Position numbers and translations under genes: made by a program
Shown: positions 7,500 through 14,106 of the stretch, in pieces
How positions within the stretch are numbered: the stretch's first letter is position 1
Layout: the number at the start of each line of letters is the position of its first letter
The notes under the pieces: generated by a model
Databases searched by the model: none
Seen by the model: the letters and a program-made list of their open reading frames with translations, nothing else
What the model was told of the DNA's origin: nothing
NCBI GenBank assembly: GCA_949283905.1
Contig: CASDUB010000085.1
Coordinates: forward strand, 1 to 14,106
DNA from: an uncultured Lachnospiraceae bacterium
GTDB taxonomy: Bacteria; Bacillota; Clostridia; Lachnospirales; Lachnospiraceae
Reading direction: 5' to 3'
Length of the DNA stretch: 14,106 nt

Positions 7500-7529
7500 G
7501 AGGCAGGTTCAGCCTGCCTCTTATTTTAT
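7500..7529. terminator. Rho-independent terminator between rmlA and the DUF4317 gene
   Basis: GAGGCAGG at 7500-7507 pairs with CCTGCCTC at 7513-7520 around a 5-nt loop, followed on the plus strand by TTATTTT. The right arm directly abuts the stop codon of the converging minus-strand gene, so it may also serve that gene, though the T-run on that side is weak. Confidence 0.88.
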
Positions 7530-8135
7530 GCCGAGAATATTAAGGATCTCGTTGTTGGTGCTTTTTGAAAAAACATCTATATGATCAAGATCGGCGCTTC
7601 TGTCGGCAAATGCCGGAAACAGAAAGCCGCTTATCGGCTCTGACGGTTCGTATTCTCCGATGAGAGGAGAAATTGTACATATCAGATATTCATAGACTTC
7701 TTCGGAATCACCGTAACGCTGTTTGTCTGATCCTTTTACGGGAATATCATATGCACCGAAAAACATATATACTGCGTAATCAAATCCCGGATTGTAATGT
7801 TCTCTTACAATTTCATAGAACAGATCGAGCATAGCGTCGTTTTCGAGACGGCATTTCTTTAATTCCCACAAAAGTTTGTACAGGTCGCGAGAGAAAGAGT
7901 TTTCTGAAGGATACCTGTATTCTTTTAACTCACTGTTAGTTCCTGCGAAAGGTATTGCTTTAGCTATTTCAAGATTTTTTGTTTTATCCTGTGAAGAAAG
8001 CTTAAGAAAGTGAGTGTTAAAACTGCCGTCTGTCTCATTTTCCGAATCTATATAGCATCCGGCGATCCTTGAAATGTGCGTTCTTTTTATATTCATTCGC
8101 CTCGTAAGCTCAAGCATATCATTTCTGTCTATCAT
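7521..8135 (-). CDS. DUF4317 family protein, short form
   Basis: 204 residues of unknown function. I recognise DUF4317 from the N-terminal stretch ending THISRIAGCYIDSEN, the middle YAVYMFFGAYDIPVKGSD, DSEEVYEYLICTISPL, and the GFLFPAFADRSADLDHIDVFSK segment. It is a soluble protein with no signal peptide or membrane segment. As I recall, family members run to roughly 400 residues and continue well past the FPAF segment, whereas this one stops about 20 residues later at an ordinary stop next to the terminator, so the C-terminal half is absent. GGGGG at 8148-8144, 8 nt from ATG 8135, sets the start. It is transcribed alone, converging on rmlA. No function should be inferred from the neighbours. 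Confidence 0.75.
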   Translation of the reverse strand: MIDRNDMLELTRRMNIKRTHISRIAGCYIDSENETDGSFNTHFLKLSSQDKTKNLEIAKAIPFAGTNSELKEYRYPSENSFSRDLYKLLWELKKCRLENDAMLDLFYEIVREHYNPGFDYAVYMFFGAYDIPVKGSDKQRYGDSEEVYEYLICTISPLIGEYEPSEPISGFLFPAFADRSADLDHIDVFSKSTNNEILNILGIK

Positions 8136-10019: not shown

Positions 10020-12371
10020 TTATAGCGCATTTGCGATCAAAGTAAAAATAAAAGCTGCGATCCATGCGATAACACACTGCCATATAACTACTATAATCGC
10101 CCATTTAGCTCCAAGCTCACGTTTGATGGAGGCGATAGCAGCAATACAAGGAGTATAAAGCAGACTGAAAACAAGTATTGCGCCTGCGGCAACAGGCGTT
10201 ATTGCCATTGCGATGCCGCCTGCTCCTGCAAATAATATCTGCATAGTTGAAACGACGCTTTCTTTAGCCATTACTCCGCAGATAAGCGACGTTACGATCC
10301 GCCAGTCTCCAAGTCCGAGCGGAGCAAAAACAGGAGTAATTGCTCCGGCTATCATTGCCATGATGCTTTGTGATGAATCGGAAACAAAATTCAGCTGAGG
10401 ATCAAAGCTCTTCAGGAACCATACTACGATAGATGCTATGAGGATTATAGTAAAAGCTCTCTGAATAAAATCTTTTGATTTTTCCCACATCAGCTGAAGA
10501 GTTGTTCTTAAGCCGGGAAGTCTGTATATAGGAAGTTCCATAACAAATGGAACGGCTTCACCTTTAAACAAGAATTTTTTATATAAAAATGCTATAAGTA
10601 TTCCGATGGCAATTCCCGCAACATAGATGCCGGTCATTACGAGACCGCCGTATTCCGGGAAAAATGCGTTTACAAAAAACGCATATATCGGAAGTTTAGC
10701 TGTACAGCTCATAAACGGCGTCAGCAGGATAGTCATCTTTCTGTCGCGTTCGCTTGGAAGAGTACGCGTCGCCATAACGGCGGGTACAGTACATCCGAAA
10801 CCTATCAGCATAGGTACTATACTTCTTCCGGAAAGTCCTATCTTTCTTAAGAGCTTGTCCATAAAAAATGCGACGCGGGCAATGTAACCGCTGTCTTCAA
10901 GCATCGAGAGAAAGAAGAACATTACAACAACGATAGGAAGGAAGCTCAATACGCTGCCGACACCTTCAAAGATTCCGTCTAATACAAGACTTTGAACCGT
11001 AGGATTGACATTGGCAGCAATCATTGCGTTCGAAGCGAGATCCGCAAGGGCTGAGATTCCCATGTCCATCAGTTCCTGAAGCCATGCGCCGACTACATTA
11101 AAAGTGAGTATAAAGACAAGAGCCATAATTCCGATAAAAACCGGAATAGCAGTATATTTTCCTGACAGGATCCTGTCAATCTTTTCGGTACGTATATGTT
11201 CTTTGCTCTCTTGCGGTTTGTTTACACACTCTTCACAGACTTTCTTTATAAAAGAGAATCTCATATCGGCCATTGCCGCGCTTCTGTCAAGACCTCTTTC
11301 ATTTTCCATCTGAACTGTTATATGCCTTAAAAGCTCAAGTTCATTTTCGTCGAGTTTAAGCTGTTTCAATATGAGAGGATCTTCTTCGATTGCCTTGCTT
11401 GCGGTAAAGCGGAGCGGAAGATCGGCTGCTTTACAGTGATCGTCTATAAGATGAATCACTGAGTGTATGCATCTGTGTATTGCGGCTTCTTTACCTTCGT
11501 TTTTGCAGAAATCGTTATACAGAGGTTTTTCCTGATATTCGGCGATATGGACCGCATGAGTTATAAGTTCGTCAATACCCTGGTTTTTCGCGGCAGAGAT
11601 AGCGACTACAGGTACTCCAAGGAGTGATTCCATGGCGTTGATATCTACTGATCCGCCGTTTCCTGTAAGTTCATCCATCATATTGAGAGCGACAACCATC
11701 GGCCTGTCCATTTCGAGCAGCTGCATCGTAAGATACAGATTACGTTCGATATTTGTTACGTCAACGATATTGATTATCGCGTCAGGTTTCTCGTTCAATA
11801 CAAAATTTCTTGAAACTATTTCTTCAGCCGTATAGGGCGACATGGAATATATGCCCGGCAGATCAGTGACTTTAGTATTTGGATATCCGATGATGGCTCC
11901 GTCTTTTCTGTCTACTGTAACGCCGGGGAAATTTCCTACATGCTGGTTTGATCCTGTTATTTTATTGAAAAGAGTTGTTTTTCCGCAATTCTGATTTCCG
12001 ACAAGGGCAAATGTAAGCACATGATCCGGCGGAAAGGATTTTACCGTATTCTTTTCATGATGTATGCCGGGTTCTCCCAGGGCGGGATGAAAAGATTTGG
12101 AACGGGAAGATCTCCTGTTTTCTTTATCGTCTTTATATTGACTGGCGTTGGTAAGTGAAACGTCGATTTTTTCGGCTTCCGAAAGGCGAAGGGTAAGATT
12201 ATATCCATGAATATTTATTTCCATGGGATCGCCTAAAGGCGCGAATTTTACGACTTTAAGTTTAGCTCCGGGTATGACACCCATGTCTAAAAAATGCTGT
12301 CTTAAAGCTCCTTCTCCGGACACCGTGTCAATTTTTGCGGATTGTCCGATCGTTAATTTATTTAATTTCAT
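10020..12371 (-). CDS. feoB: FeoA-FeoB fusion, ferrous iron transporter
   Basis: 783 residues. Residues 1 to about 74 are a FeoA (SH3-like) domain with the HFLDMGVIPGAKLKV stretch; a polar linker of about 40 residues, with RRSSRSK and HH, joins it to FeoB. The G domain has G1 GNQNCGKTT 125-133, G3 DLPG 170-173, G4 NMMD 230-233 and G5 SAA 259-261, followed by the helical spacer and a membrane part with two Gate repeats of many helices. FeoB imports Fe(II) driven by nucleotide hydrolysis, and FeoA normally is a separate small protein. AGAGGA sits about 4 nt before ATG 12371. ribU follows at 40 nt. Divergent from the signal-peptidase-like gene. The usual Clostridia FeoB features are intact, with no frameshift. 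Confidence 0.95.
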   Translation of the reverse strand: MKLNKLTIGQSAKIDTVSGEGALRQHFLDMGVIPGAKLKVVKFAPLGDPMEINIHGYNLTLRLSEAEKIDVSLTNASQYKDDKENRRSSRSKSFHPALGEPGIHHEKNTVKSFPPDHVLTFALVGNQNCGKTTLFNKITGSNQHVGNFPGVTVDRKDGAIIGYPNTKVTDLPGIYSMSPYTAEEIVSRNFVLNEKPDAIINIVDVTNIERNLYLTMQLLEMDRPMVVALNMMDELTGNGGSVDINAMESLLGVPVVAISAAKNQGIDELITHAVHIAEYQEKPLYNDFCKNEGKEAAIHRCIHSVIHLIDDHCKAADLPLRFTASKAIEEDPLILKQLKLDENELELLRHITVQMENERGLDRSAAMADMRFSFIKKVCEECVNKPQESKEHIRTEKIDRILSGKYTAIPVFIGIMALVFILTFNVVGAWLQELMDMGISALADLASNAMIAANVNPTVQSLVLDGIFEGVGSVLSFLPIVVVMFFFLSMLEDSGYIARVAFFMDKLLRKIGLSGRSIVPMLIGFGCTVPAVMATRTLPSERDRKMTILLTPFMSCTAKLPIYAFFVNAFFPEYGGLVMTGIYVAGIAIGILIAFLYKKFLFKGEAVPFVMELPIYRLPGLRTTLQLMWEKSKDFIQRAFTIILIASIVVWFLKSFDPQLNFVSDSSQSIMAMIAGAITPVFAPLGLGDWRIVTSLICGVMAKESVVSTMQILFAGAGGIAMAITPVAAGAILVFSLLYTPCIAAIASIKRELGAKWAIIVVIWQCVIAWIAAFIFTLIANAL

Positions 12372-12450: not shown

Positions 12451-12500
12451 CTTTTTTATCGGTGCAAAATAAATTTTTTAAACAAAAACTCAAATGAGTA

Positions 12501-12529: not shown

Positions 12530-12658
12530 TTGAATATCCAAAAACTAATCTTATTACATATCATAAAATTATCTTATATTTCTATTTTTGACATTTCAAT
12601 AGTTTATCTTCCAAATATATCATTATTGACGCAGCAAGTGCGTAAGAAAGAAGTAAAG

Positions 12659-13159
12659 ATGAAAAAAAAGAAATTAAGTCCTGTTTTGCGGCTGCTGATC
12701 AAATCGTTTTTGATAATAACAGCGGGGATCATCACTTTGTTATTTGTAGTTGAACCCTACAGAATGACAGGCAATGAAATGTCTCCGTATGTAAAAGACG
12801 GAGATCTGTGTATTTTTTATAAATTAGAAAAAATTCATATAAATGATGTCGTTCTTTATGAGACGGATAACGGCGAAACAAAGGTAGGAAGAGTAGCTGC
12901 ATATTCTGGTCAGACCATAGATTTTACCGATAACGGAGAGTACCTGACGGACGGCTATTTTCCGGCGGAGGAGAACCCTTACGATACTTACGTTTCGGAC
13001 AGTTCTGAAAATACTTATCCTCTGAAGCTGGATGAAGATGAAGTTTTTATCTTGAATGATTTCAGACAGTTAACTTCCGACAGCAGGGAATACGGACCCG
13101 TCAAAATTGAAAAGATAAAGGGAAAACTGTTATTTCTGATGAGGAGAAGGGGATTTTAG
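12659..13159 (+). CDS. Signal peptidase I-fold protein lacking the catalytic dyad (SipA-like, candidate pilus assembly factor)
   Basis: I take ATG 12659 (166 residues). The frame is open back to an ATG at 12494, but that lies upstream of the promoter and the extra residues resemble nothing; the site before 12659 is A-rich with only a weak Shine-Dalgarno match. One N-terminal membrane helix spans about 11-31, followed by the S26 fold: MTGNEMSPYVKDGD (36-49), INDVVLY, VGRV (76-79) and SDSREYG (140-146). In active enzymes the first motif reads G.SM.P with the catalytic serine; here that place is Glu40. The catalytic lysine just before the RV pair is Gly77. Ser42 and Lys75 are near but off register. 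Streptococcal SipA, needed for pilus polymerisation, has Asp and Gly at these places, also 37 residues apart as I recall. The sortase follows after one base. Confidence 0.85.
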   Translation: MKKKKLSPVLRLLIKSFLIITAGIITLLFVVEPYRMTGNEMSPYVKDGDLCIFYKLEKIHINDVVLYETDNGETKVGRVAAYSGQTIDFTDNGEYLTDGYFPAEENPYDTYVSDSSENTYPLKLDEDEVFILNDFRQLTSDSREYGPVKIEKIKGKLLFLMRRRGF

Positions 13160-13160
13160 A

Positions 13161-13871
13161 TTGAAAGTAATTAAACAGATCATACGGTGCTTAAGCCTGT
13201 TTGAAGATATATTGCTTCTGTTTGTGTTTTTGATTTTTCTTATAACCGGGATATATGCGATTTACGACAATTTTCTTTTATATCAAAGCGCCGGCAACAG
13301 CAGTATTTCGTCTGATAAATCAGGCGGAGATGATAGAGAAAATGAGAAAAGCATAGTCGGATATATGGCTGCCCGGCTGACTATAGATGGAACAAATATC
13401 GATTATCCGATAATGCAGGGCGAAACAAATATCGAATATCTAAATAAGGATCCGTATGGTGAATATTCTTTATCAGGATCAATTTTTCTTGACAGCCGTA
13501 ATGACGGCAAATTTGAGGATGATTACTCGATTGTTTACGGTCATCATATGGAAAACGGATATATGTTCGGAGCGTTGGATGATTTTCTTGATGAGGATTA
13601 TTTAGCCAAACACAGCAGCGGGACGCTGAGGATAAGTGAAGATCTGATTTACAAGATAAAAATCTTTGCGGTGCTTATAGATGACGCCACATGTGATTAT
13701 TTTTTCGCTCCGGGCAGCAGGAGCAATGAAGAAATAATTGAACACATTAAAGAAAAGGCGTTGATACTGACAAAAGATGTGAACGATGCGGATAAGATTA
13801 TCGCACTTTCTACCTGCAGACAGGCGGGCAGCAACAGACGAACAATAGTTATAGGAAGTTTATATGTATAA
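13161..13871 (+). CDS. Class B sortase (transpeptidase)
   Basis: 236 residues, translated from TTG 13161 with AGGGGA about 7 nt upstream; one base separates it from the preceding stop. A membrane helix at about 15-35 anchors the N-terminus in, catalytic domain out. The class B pattern is clear: YPIMQGETNIEYLNKD 82-97, SIFLDSRND 107-115, YGHHM 126-130 with catalytic H128, the MFGALDDFLDEDY segment 135-147, LSTC 216-219 with nucleophile C219, and the active-site arginine R226 or, more likely, R227 before TIVIG. Sortases cleave a C-terminal sorting signal of secreted proteins and join the acyl product to an amine, either the wall precursor or the next pilin. Its neighbours, a SipA-like protein and a secreted protein, favour pilin polymerisation, as with the class B enzyme of the S. 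pyogenes FCT locus. The sorting motif is not visible here. Confidence 0.92.
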   Translation: MKVIKQIIRCLSLFEDILLLFVFLIFLITGIYAIYDNFLLYQSAGNSSISSDKSGGDDRENEKSIVGYMAARLTIDGTNIDYPIMQGETNIEYLNKDPYGEYSLSGSIFLDSRNDGKFEDDYSIVYGHHMENGYMFGALDDFLDEDYLAKHSSGTLRISEDLIYKIKIFAVLIDDATCDYFFAPGSRSNEEIIEHIKEKALILTKDVNDADKIIALSTCRQAGSNRRTIVIGSLYV

Positions 13872-13876
13872 AATAA

Positions 13877-13889
13877 ACGCGTTTCGCGT
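13877..13889 (+). other. Small GC-rich hairpin between sortase and secreted-protein genes
   Basis: ACGCG (13877-13881) pairs with CGCGT (13885-13889) around a TTT loop, 5 nt after the sortase stop. It lacks a following T-run, so it is not an intrinsic terminator by itself. It could mark mRNA processing or slow decay between the sortase and the next gene. Confidence 0.35.
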
Positions 13890-13922
13890 ATCACATAGAT
13901 AAAAAAATGAAAGGAGATTATT

Positions 13923-14106
13923 TTGAAAAAACAAAAAATATCGAAAAAAGCGCTGAGGATAATATCGGTGTTATTTTTAGCTCTATCGTTATTTGCAGGC
14001 AGTATTGCAGCTTCTGCTTCGGTTTTGCCGGATGCTGATCAATCGGAGAGCATCAGTCTTGAGAAAAAGGTGGAAACTGAAACGGAAGAAGACGAAGACA
14101 AAGAAA
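13923..14106 (+). CDS. Secreted protein, N-terminal part (right-truncated); candidate sortase substrate
   Basis: The start is TTG 13923, with AAGGAG at 13911-13916 exactly 6 nt upstream; the frame stays open to the window end (61 residues). The N-terminus is a classical signal peptide: a basic KKQKISKKALR stretch, a hydrophobic core IISVLFLALSLFAG, and a likely cleavage after ASA near residue 33. The mature start is polar, then becomes strongly acidic (VETETEEDEDKE). It lies 52 bases after the sortase on the same strand, so it is probably in the operon and the substrate of that sortase, for example a pilin or surface adhesin. The C-terminal sorting signal that would prove this is outside the window. 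The protein family is not recognisable from this fragment. Confidence 0.7.
   Translation, partial: MKKQKISKKALRIISVLFLALSLFAGSIAASASVLPDADQSESISLEKKVETETEEDEDKE

Follow-up and report, generated by a model that had tools for sequence, protein, structure and literature searches.

A SipA-like pseudo-peptidase and a class B sortase at the end of a Lachnospiraceae contig: very probably the assembly part of a sortase-dependent pilus operon

The three genes that close the window (the entire contig G000:C85, 14,106 bases, from a Lachnospiraceae assembly of 299 contigs that is 82.6% complete) very probably form the assembly part of a pilus operon that relies on SipA and a class B sortase, the type used by S. 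pyogenes FCT-2 to FCT-4. This reading is based on the SipA fold with its lost catalytic dyad, the class and tree branch of the sortase, and conservation of the operon in relatives; by analogy with streptococci, the sortase chemistry, the partner role of SipA and the formation of a pilus would follow.

Open reading frames for the three genes (sipA, srtB and gene 3; Table 1) were found on the plus strand where the earlier note had placed them. srtB starts one base past the sipA stop, and gene 3 begins 51 bases past the sortase stop and breaks off with the contig after 61 aa (184 bases). The note had read the row as a signal-peptidase fold without its catalytic residues, a class B sortase and a truncated secreted protein with a signal peptide, and each of these assignments holds. 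The sipA start was taken as the ATG behind a Shine-Dalgarno-like stretch; the list of open reading frames opens the frame further up, at 12494. A Pfam scan of the 61 aa of gene 3 gave no match. A promoter scan of the region was uninformative (4 promoter-like sites vs. 7.3 in shuffles), and terminator-like sites numbered 4 vs. 1.1 in shuffles. Elsewhere in the window (7521-8135, minus strand) lies a gene for a DUF4317 protein of 204 aa, the best stretch of which covers positions 3-158 of the 370-position family model; this gene is possibly truncated.

Table 1. Features at the end of the window and copies of the leader element found in front of sipA
Feature	Location	Strand	Properties and evidence
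SipA-like pseudo signal peptidase	12659-13159	+	166 aa; N-terminal hydrophobic stretch; Ser -> Glu40, Lys -> Gly77; Pfam Peptidase_S26, PDB 4n31/4k8w
Class B sortase, pilin-polymerase branch	13161-13871	+	236 aa; TTG start; TIGR03064, PDB 3psq, tree
5' end of secreted protein, presumably pilin	13923-14106	+	TTG start; signal peptide then strongly acidic stretch
Dispersed leader element at sipA	12608..12661	+	Same element before other genes of the genome; RNA model R1 matches
feoB (FeoA-FeoB fusion)	10020-12371	-	Divergent from sipA, upstream neighbor
Leader copies in G000	C252:2655-2735, C160:6366-6446, C195:14103-14183, C144:11296-11347
Leader copies in G003 and G049	L237-L256

The product of gene 1 matches Pfam Peptidase_S26 and the NCBIfam signal peptidase I model, and thus shares its family with type I signal peptidase. 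Among solved structures it comes closest to S. pyogenes SipA (4n31, E = 8.9e-29; 4k8w, E = 9.8e-29), whereas no chain named signal peptidase I does better than E = 9.8e-6, so that SipA is the better match by 23 orders of magnitude in E. In an alignment read by eye, Glu40 stands opposite SipA Asp48 at the place of the catalytic Ser, Gly77 opposite SipA Gly85 at the place of the catalytic Lys, and Lys75 aligns with SipA Lys83; the SipA residues at the catalytic places are those named in PMC4049620. The Ser-Lys dyad of an active type I signal peptidase is therefore absent, both residues being replaced. SipA itself is described in the same source as essential for polymerization and without peptidase activity.

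Loss of the dyad extends to the relatives. When the window protein was aligned with 92 others of SipA type (93 in all), the catalytic-Lys column held Gly in 84, with Ser, Arg and Lys in 3 each. The catalytic Ser is kept in 34 of the 93 and Ser and Lys occur together in only three (loci L131, L145 and L167), so these proteins are generally marked by a missing lysine rather than a missing serine. The S26 genes with an intact dyad at these three loci lie near the large-protein gene of a pilus locus; their products look like active peptidases, judging from sequence, and each is perhaps a dedicated signal peptidase. The source genome (G000) has a further S26 gene on contig C199.

Gene 2 matches Pfam Sortase and the class B sortase model TIGR03064 (158.3 bits; cut-off 153.75). 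The solved structure that it matches best is 3psq (E = 2.5e-38), identified in PMC3019223 as Spy0129, the S. pyogenes pilin polymerase; weaker matches are 4y4q (7.5e-31), Lmo2181 (3.7e-23) and other SrtB chains (1.4e-22 or poorer). His128, His129, Cys219 and Arg227 are invariant among 38 aligned sortases (window plus 37). Class B membership and catalytic residues are shared with ordinary or haem-anchoring class B sortases such as S. aureus SrtB and Lmo2181, and placement within the class was read from a tree of 74 rows: the window sortase, 33 from named pilus loci (every second eligible one), 18 from pilus loci of the family, 19 ordinary SrtB and 3 solved structures. Three contigs are common to the named-locus and family-locus sets. 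A branch with support of 100/100 unites the window, the 51 pilus-locus sortases, Spy0129 and 4y4q, and parts them from Lmo2181 and the 19 ordinary SrtB. The nearest rows to the window by path are L090, L070, L155, L103 and L164, and a weak fork (91/38) joins the window with L090, L070, L103 and L116, all of which have sipA and srtB adjacent, as the window does.

This placement bears on a different account of the same genes, in which gene 2 would encode an ordinary SrtB for attaching an iron or haem protein to the cell wall, with the S26 protein as a bystander. The FeoA-FeoB fusion gene divergent from sipA hints at iron uptake, and one related pilus locus, L089, also has feoB beside it (L089:3439-5769, 67% identity). 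The window sortase does not, however, group with anchoring SrtB in the tree, for which the yardstick is Lmo2181 and 19 SrtB of unknown substrate, and S. aureus SrtB, compared by score only, gives 83 bits against it where Spy0129 gives 135. feoB occurs in 1 of the 100 loci L070-L169, and ordinary SrtB differ from the relatives of the window sortase in their neighbors (below). We consider an iron- or haem-anchoring role highly improbable. A general link between feoB, or iron uptake, and the pilus operon was likewise rejected on the count of 1 in 100; the presence of feoB beside pilus genes in the window and in L089 reflects either a shared insertion place or chance.

Two more sortases of the genome, G000:C87:9216-9737 and C229:4634-5161, show 32% and 31% identity to the window sortase; going by names given from translations, the former lies on a contig with polysaccharide-type genes and the latter between translation and replication genes. 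In a viral collection, five loci with a related sortase were seen.

Lack of co-occurrence of the genes in relatives, which the earlier note had named as refuting, was put to a scan of one genome per species, and the outcome did not refute the reading. The best 80 of 329 confirmed relatives were kept; a sortase open reading frame was called in 77 of these (L105, L107 and L153 were left out of the rates, and L157 was counted despite a low-scoring sortase of 88 bits). SipA lies within 3 kb of the sortase in 66/77 (>120 bits, same strand), a rate to be read with the fact that both profiles, SipA and sortase, took their seeds from the counted loci (L070-L169) and are thus tuned in sensitivity to them. 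The 11 misses include five loci with <1.3 kb upstream of the sortase, and L145, which has only the dyad-intact S26 gene. A sorting-signal protein of 250-620 aa lies within 3 kb of the sortase in 71/77. As a control we took 20 SrtB matches from other genomes, one per genome and with wider flanks; L179 had no sortase open reading frame, which left 19. In contrast to the pilus-locus sortases, none of these ordinary SrtB has SipA nearby (0/19, one having only 1.35 kb upstream) and none has a sorting-signal protein of 250-620 aa nearby (0/19), in agreement with the claim of the earlier note that most class B sortases elsewhere have no SipA partner. Conversely, 19 of 20 loci picked within the family by SipA similarity hold a related sortase. 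The lost SipA dyad, the polymerase-branch sortase and the difference in SipA neighborhood between related and ordinary sortases thus together point to the assembly half of a SipA/class-B-sortase pilus.

The usual gene order in the relatives' loci, seen in most of those listed, is sipA-backbone-srtB-base-large protein. In the window sipA and srtB are adjacent, and the same adjacency is seen in L070, L088, L090, L100, L103, L116, L118, L125, L126 and L139. Among these loci, the gene after srtB is the backbone in L100, L103 and L116 (no pilin being seen upstream of sipA; in L116 the backbone gene is masked by an antisense open reading frame) and also in L090, where the contig starts just before sipA. 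L118 and L126 have the backbone upstream and a base pilin after srtB, and L070, L125 and L139 have pilins upstream. At L139 (3980-8686) several tandem xPTG sorting-signal proteins precede sipA-srtB.

The pilins of these relatives support the pilus-type assembly reading, since the loci hold FctA-type backbones with [I/V]PTG signals together with base and tip-type proteins. C-terminal signals of the 89 sorting-signal proteins in named loci are IPTG in 56 and VPTG in 6, and the rest include KTGD-type base pilins. For the backbones, the selection of 66 proteins used length and an [I/V/L]PTG motif, which therefore cannot count as independent evidence for this set; 64 were aligned, two extra L139 copies being left out. 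DUF7601 is found in 64/64 and FctA in 39/64 (E up to 0.001). The backbone profile matches the S. pyogenes pilins T18.1 (8f70, E = 1e-48) and Spy0128 (3b2m, E = 6.6e-29). Lys189, Asn195 and the PTG are invariant in the 64, with Lys189 six residues before Asn195; in the profile match T18.1 has a lysine at the same column as the invariant Lys, and Spy0128, read by eye, has one near it. The acceptor lysine of FctA is given as Lys161 in PMC7900414. Lys43, Glu145, Lys206, Glu289 and Asn323 are each conserved in at least 90% of the 64 backbones, and the invariant and conserved residues together would fit two isopeptide domains (Lys-Glu-Asn), from what is known of Spy0128.

For the base pilins, 26 of the 30 proteins listed among 52 candidates were aligned; those of L100, L101, L116 and L122 were dropped as lying upstream and looking like other genes. 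FctA matches 21 of the 26 small proteins, and the profile finds a two-copy T18.1 pilin chain best (9.6e-25), followed by the 3klq pilus anchoring protein (1.9e-17) and FctB3 (2.7e-17). The large proteins are often about 2000 aa long; in the 20 scanned of 43 complete ones, SpaA occurs in 18 and DUF7601 in 17. Of two such sets of proteins, one includes a thioester domain, found in the L070 protein of 791 aa.

Within the preferred reading of the window as a pilus operon, gene 3 could encode a large tip protein or adhesin rather than the backbone, a variant to which we give somewhat less than an even chance. The acidic fraction after its signal peptide is 0.38, above the maxima for backbones (0.24, 60 proteins) and base pilins (0.28, 49 proteins) and within that for large proteins (mean 0.20, maximum 0.41, 66 proteins), in classes that were sorted roughly and in which some rows are other genes. 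A search with the 61-aa protein, which considers proteins of similar length only, gave no candidate; a loose BLAST against the open reading frames of related loci gave at best a weak match, to the beginning of the 1993-aa L090 protein (E = 0.036). Gene order stands against the tip variant: the gene after srtB is the backbone in the four loci named above (L090, L100, L103 and L116), and the window would then differ in order from its nearest relatives. When profiles of pilin N termini were compared with gene 3, shuffled sequences scored as high in 255/300 cases for tip, 35/300 for backbone and 144/300 for base. Acidity thus favors a tip, gene order favors a backbone, and profile scores favor neither.

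No recognizable pilin lies in the window, and the pilin genes expected further along were sought in the rest of the assembly. FctA was not found in the G000 contigs, in a search in which no positive control gave a match either. DUF7601 was also not found there, and the same search found it in 5/5 genomes that hold such loci; it was not found in either of the two congeners searched. SpaA has one match in G000, on contig C70 beside two other sortases. This region (G000:C70:1-3800, L171) holds a SpaA-domain protein ending in LPGTGG with a membrane tail, two sortases (313 aa and 293 aa) and the first part of a further secreted protein, and looks like a separate, second pilus-type locus of the genome.

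Absence of FctA and DUF7601 from an incomplete assembly fits pilins lost in assembly gaps. It could also be cited for a decayed or orphan remnant, in which sipA and srtB would persist beside a stray secreted protein but with no functional pilins, and so could the lack of a close SipA in six congeners (matches only in G003, 36% identity, and G005, 25% identity). Yet sipA and srtB are open and keep their expected residues, the contig stops after 184 bases of the next gene, and pilin genes do follow at the four loci where srtB directly follows sipA and the backbone comes next. A remnant is accordingly very unlikely in our judgment, and we retain the reading of an operon that is truncated where the contig stops.

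If the system works as in S. pyogenes (PMC3019223 and PMC7900414), a pilin of such an operon would be secreted and then held in the membrane through its C-terminal signal. The class B sortase would cut the Thr-Gly bond of the [I/V]PTG-type signal and link the pilin through its Thr to a lysine on the following subunit, with the SipA-like protein as a membrane-bound, non-proteolytic partner needed for polymerization. A base pilin would end growth of the pilus. The secreted protein encoded after srtB would be a pilin of the operon.

The S. pyogenes FCT-2 to FCT-4 loci use this SipA/class-B-sortase gene set, according to PMC7900414 (Cpa, SipA, FctA, class B SrtC and FctB). The window shares with them the dyad-less pseudo-peptidase and the class B sortase branch, and its relatives share the FctA/DUF7601 xPTG backbone, an FctB-like base pilin and large proteins with SpaA domains. 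Unlike in the S. pyogenes pilus, sipA and srtB are adjacent in the window with no pilin between them, and the large proteins of the relatives often reach the length given above. A similar clostridial operon is that of the necrotic enteritis pilus of C. perfringens VR-10B (CnaA, FimA, FimB, a signal peptidase and the class B SrtB1), compared here by description only. PMC8088525 reports a pilus, seen by electron microscopy, whose operon includes genes for a class B sortase and a signal peptidase, and its authors note synteny with streptococcal loci.

The earlier description of a little-described surface polymer system was thus too strong, a class B sortase pilus of C. perfringens having already been shown (PMC8088525). 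The window adds one more example of a machine already known, which many Clostridia of gut and rumen also carry. The C. perfringens operon belongs to a pathogen; in the open-access literature we found no report of the operon in Lachnospiraceae or rumen Clostridia, and within that literature its occurrence in commensal gut and rumen Bacillota seems less described. The window itself, a truncated member, is an ordinary result. Cultured commensals that carry the operon include Sharpea azabuensis (L118), Eubacterium ruminantium (L124) and Lachnospiraceae NE2001 (L123). What the comparison adds is several dozen additional operon versions, most of them from commensals, which can be used to test whether SipA travels with the sortase and how the position of the acceptor lysine relates to sortase class, for which the invariant Lys of the 64 backbones is a starting point.

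More tentatively, SipA/class-B-sortase/FctA pili may be common among the sortase-built pili of Clostridia and Erysipelotrichia from gut and rumen, with the streptococcal class B pili as one transferred branch and sortase class going with acceptor-lysine position (the invariant Lys of clostridial backbones lies near Lys161 of Spy0128). We hold this wider scheme to be possible but rather less probable than not. The placement of Spy0129 inside the pilus branch falls on a poorly supported fork, so that transfer in either direction would be compatible with the tree.

The region in front of sipA carries a dispersed element. In the window it comprises a short hairpin at 12629-12643 (ACGCA-GCAAG-TGCGT) and a Shine-Dalgarno-like stretch, AGAAAGAAG, followed by the ATG. 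The element is about 75 bases long; many copies have an upstream hairpin-like stretch (AGTTTGGAAG..CTTCCAAAT), degenerate in the window copy, then a hairpin GACGC-AGCAAGT-GCGTC with a few compensatory changes, the Shine-Dalgarno stretch and a start codon. Rfam gave no match in the window at the gathering score, and three weak matches were judged to be chance. An RNA model (R1) was built from 14 copies (5 from G000 and 9 from G003) and applied under strict filters, accepting E values up to 0.01. It matches 10 times in G000, 26 times in the congener G003 and twice in G049, which belongs to another genus, and not in the other 58 of the 61 genomes searched; the model included the ATG and the search covered the training genomes, so the G000 and G003 counts are partly by construction and the G049 matches are independent. 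Most inspected copies end where an unrelated gene has its start codon, with nearly constant spacing. The genes behind them, named from their translations, include ALDH, a ddl-like gene, cobT, hisS, adk in tandem and lon, among others.
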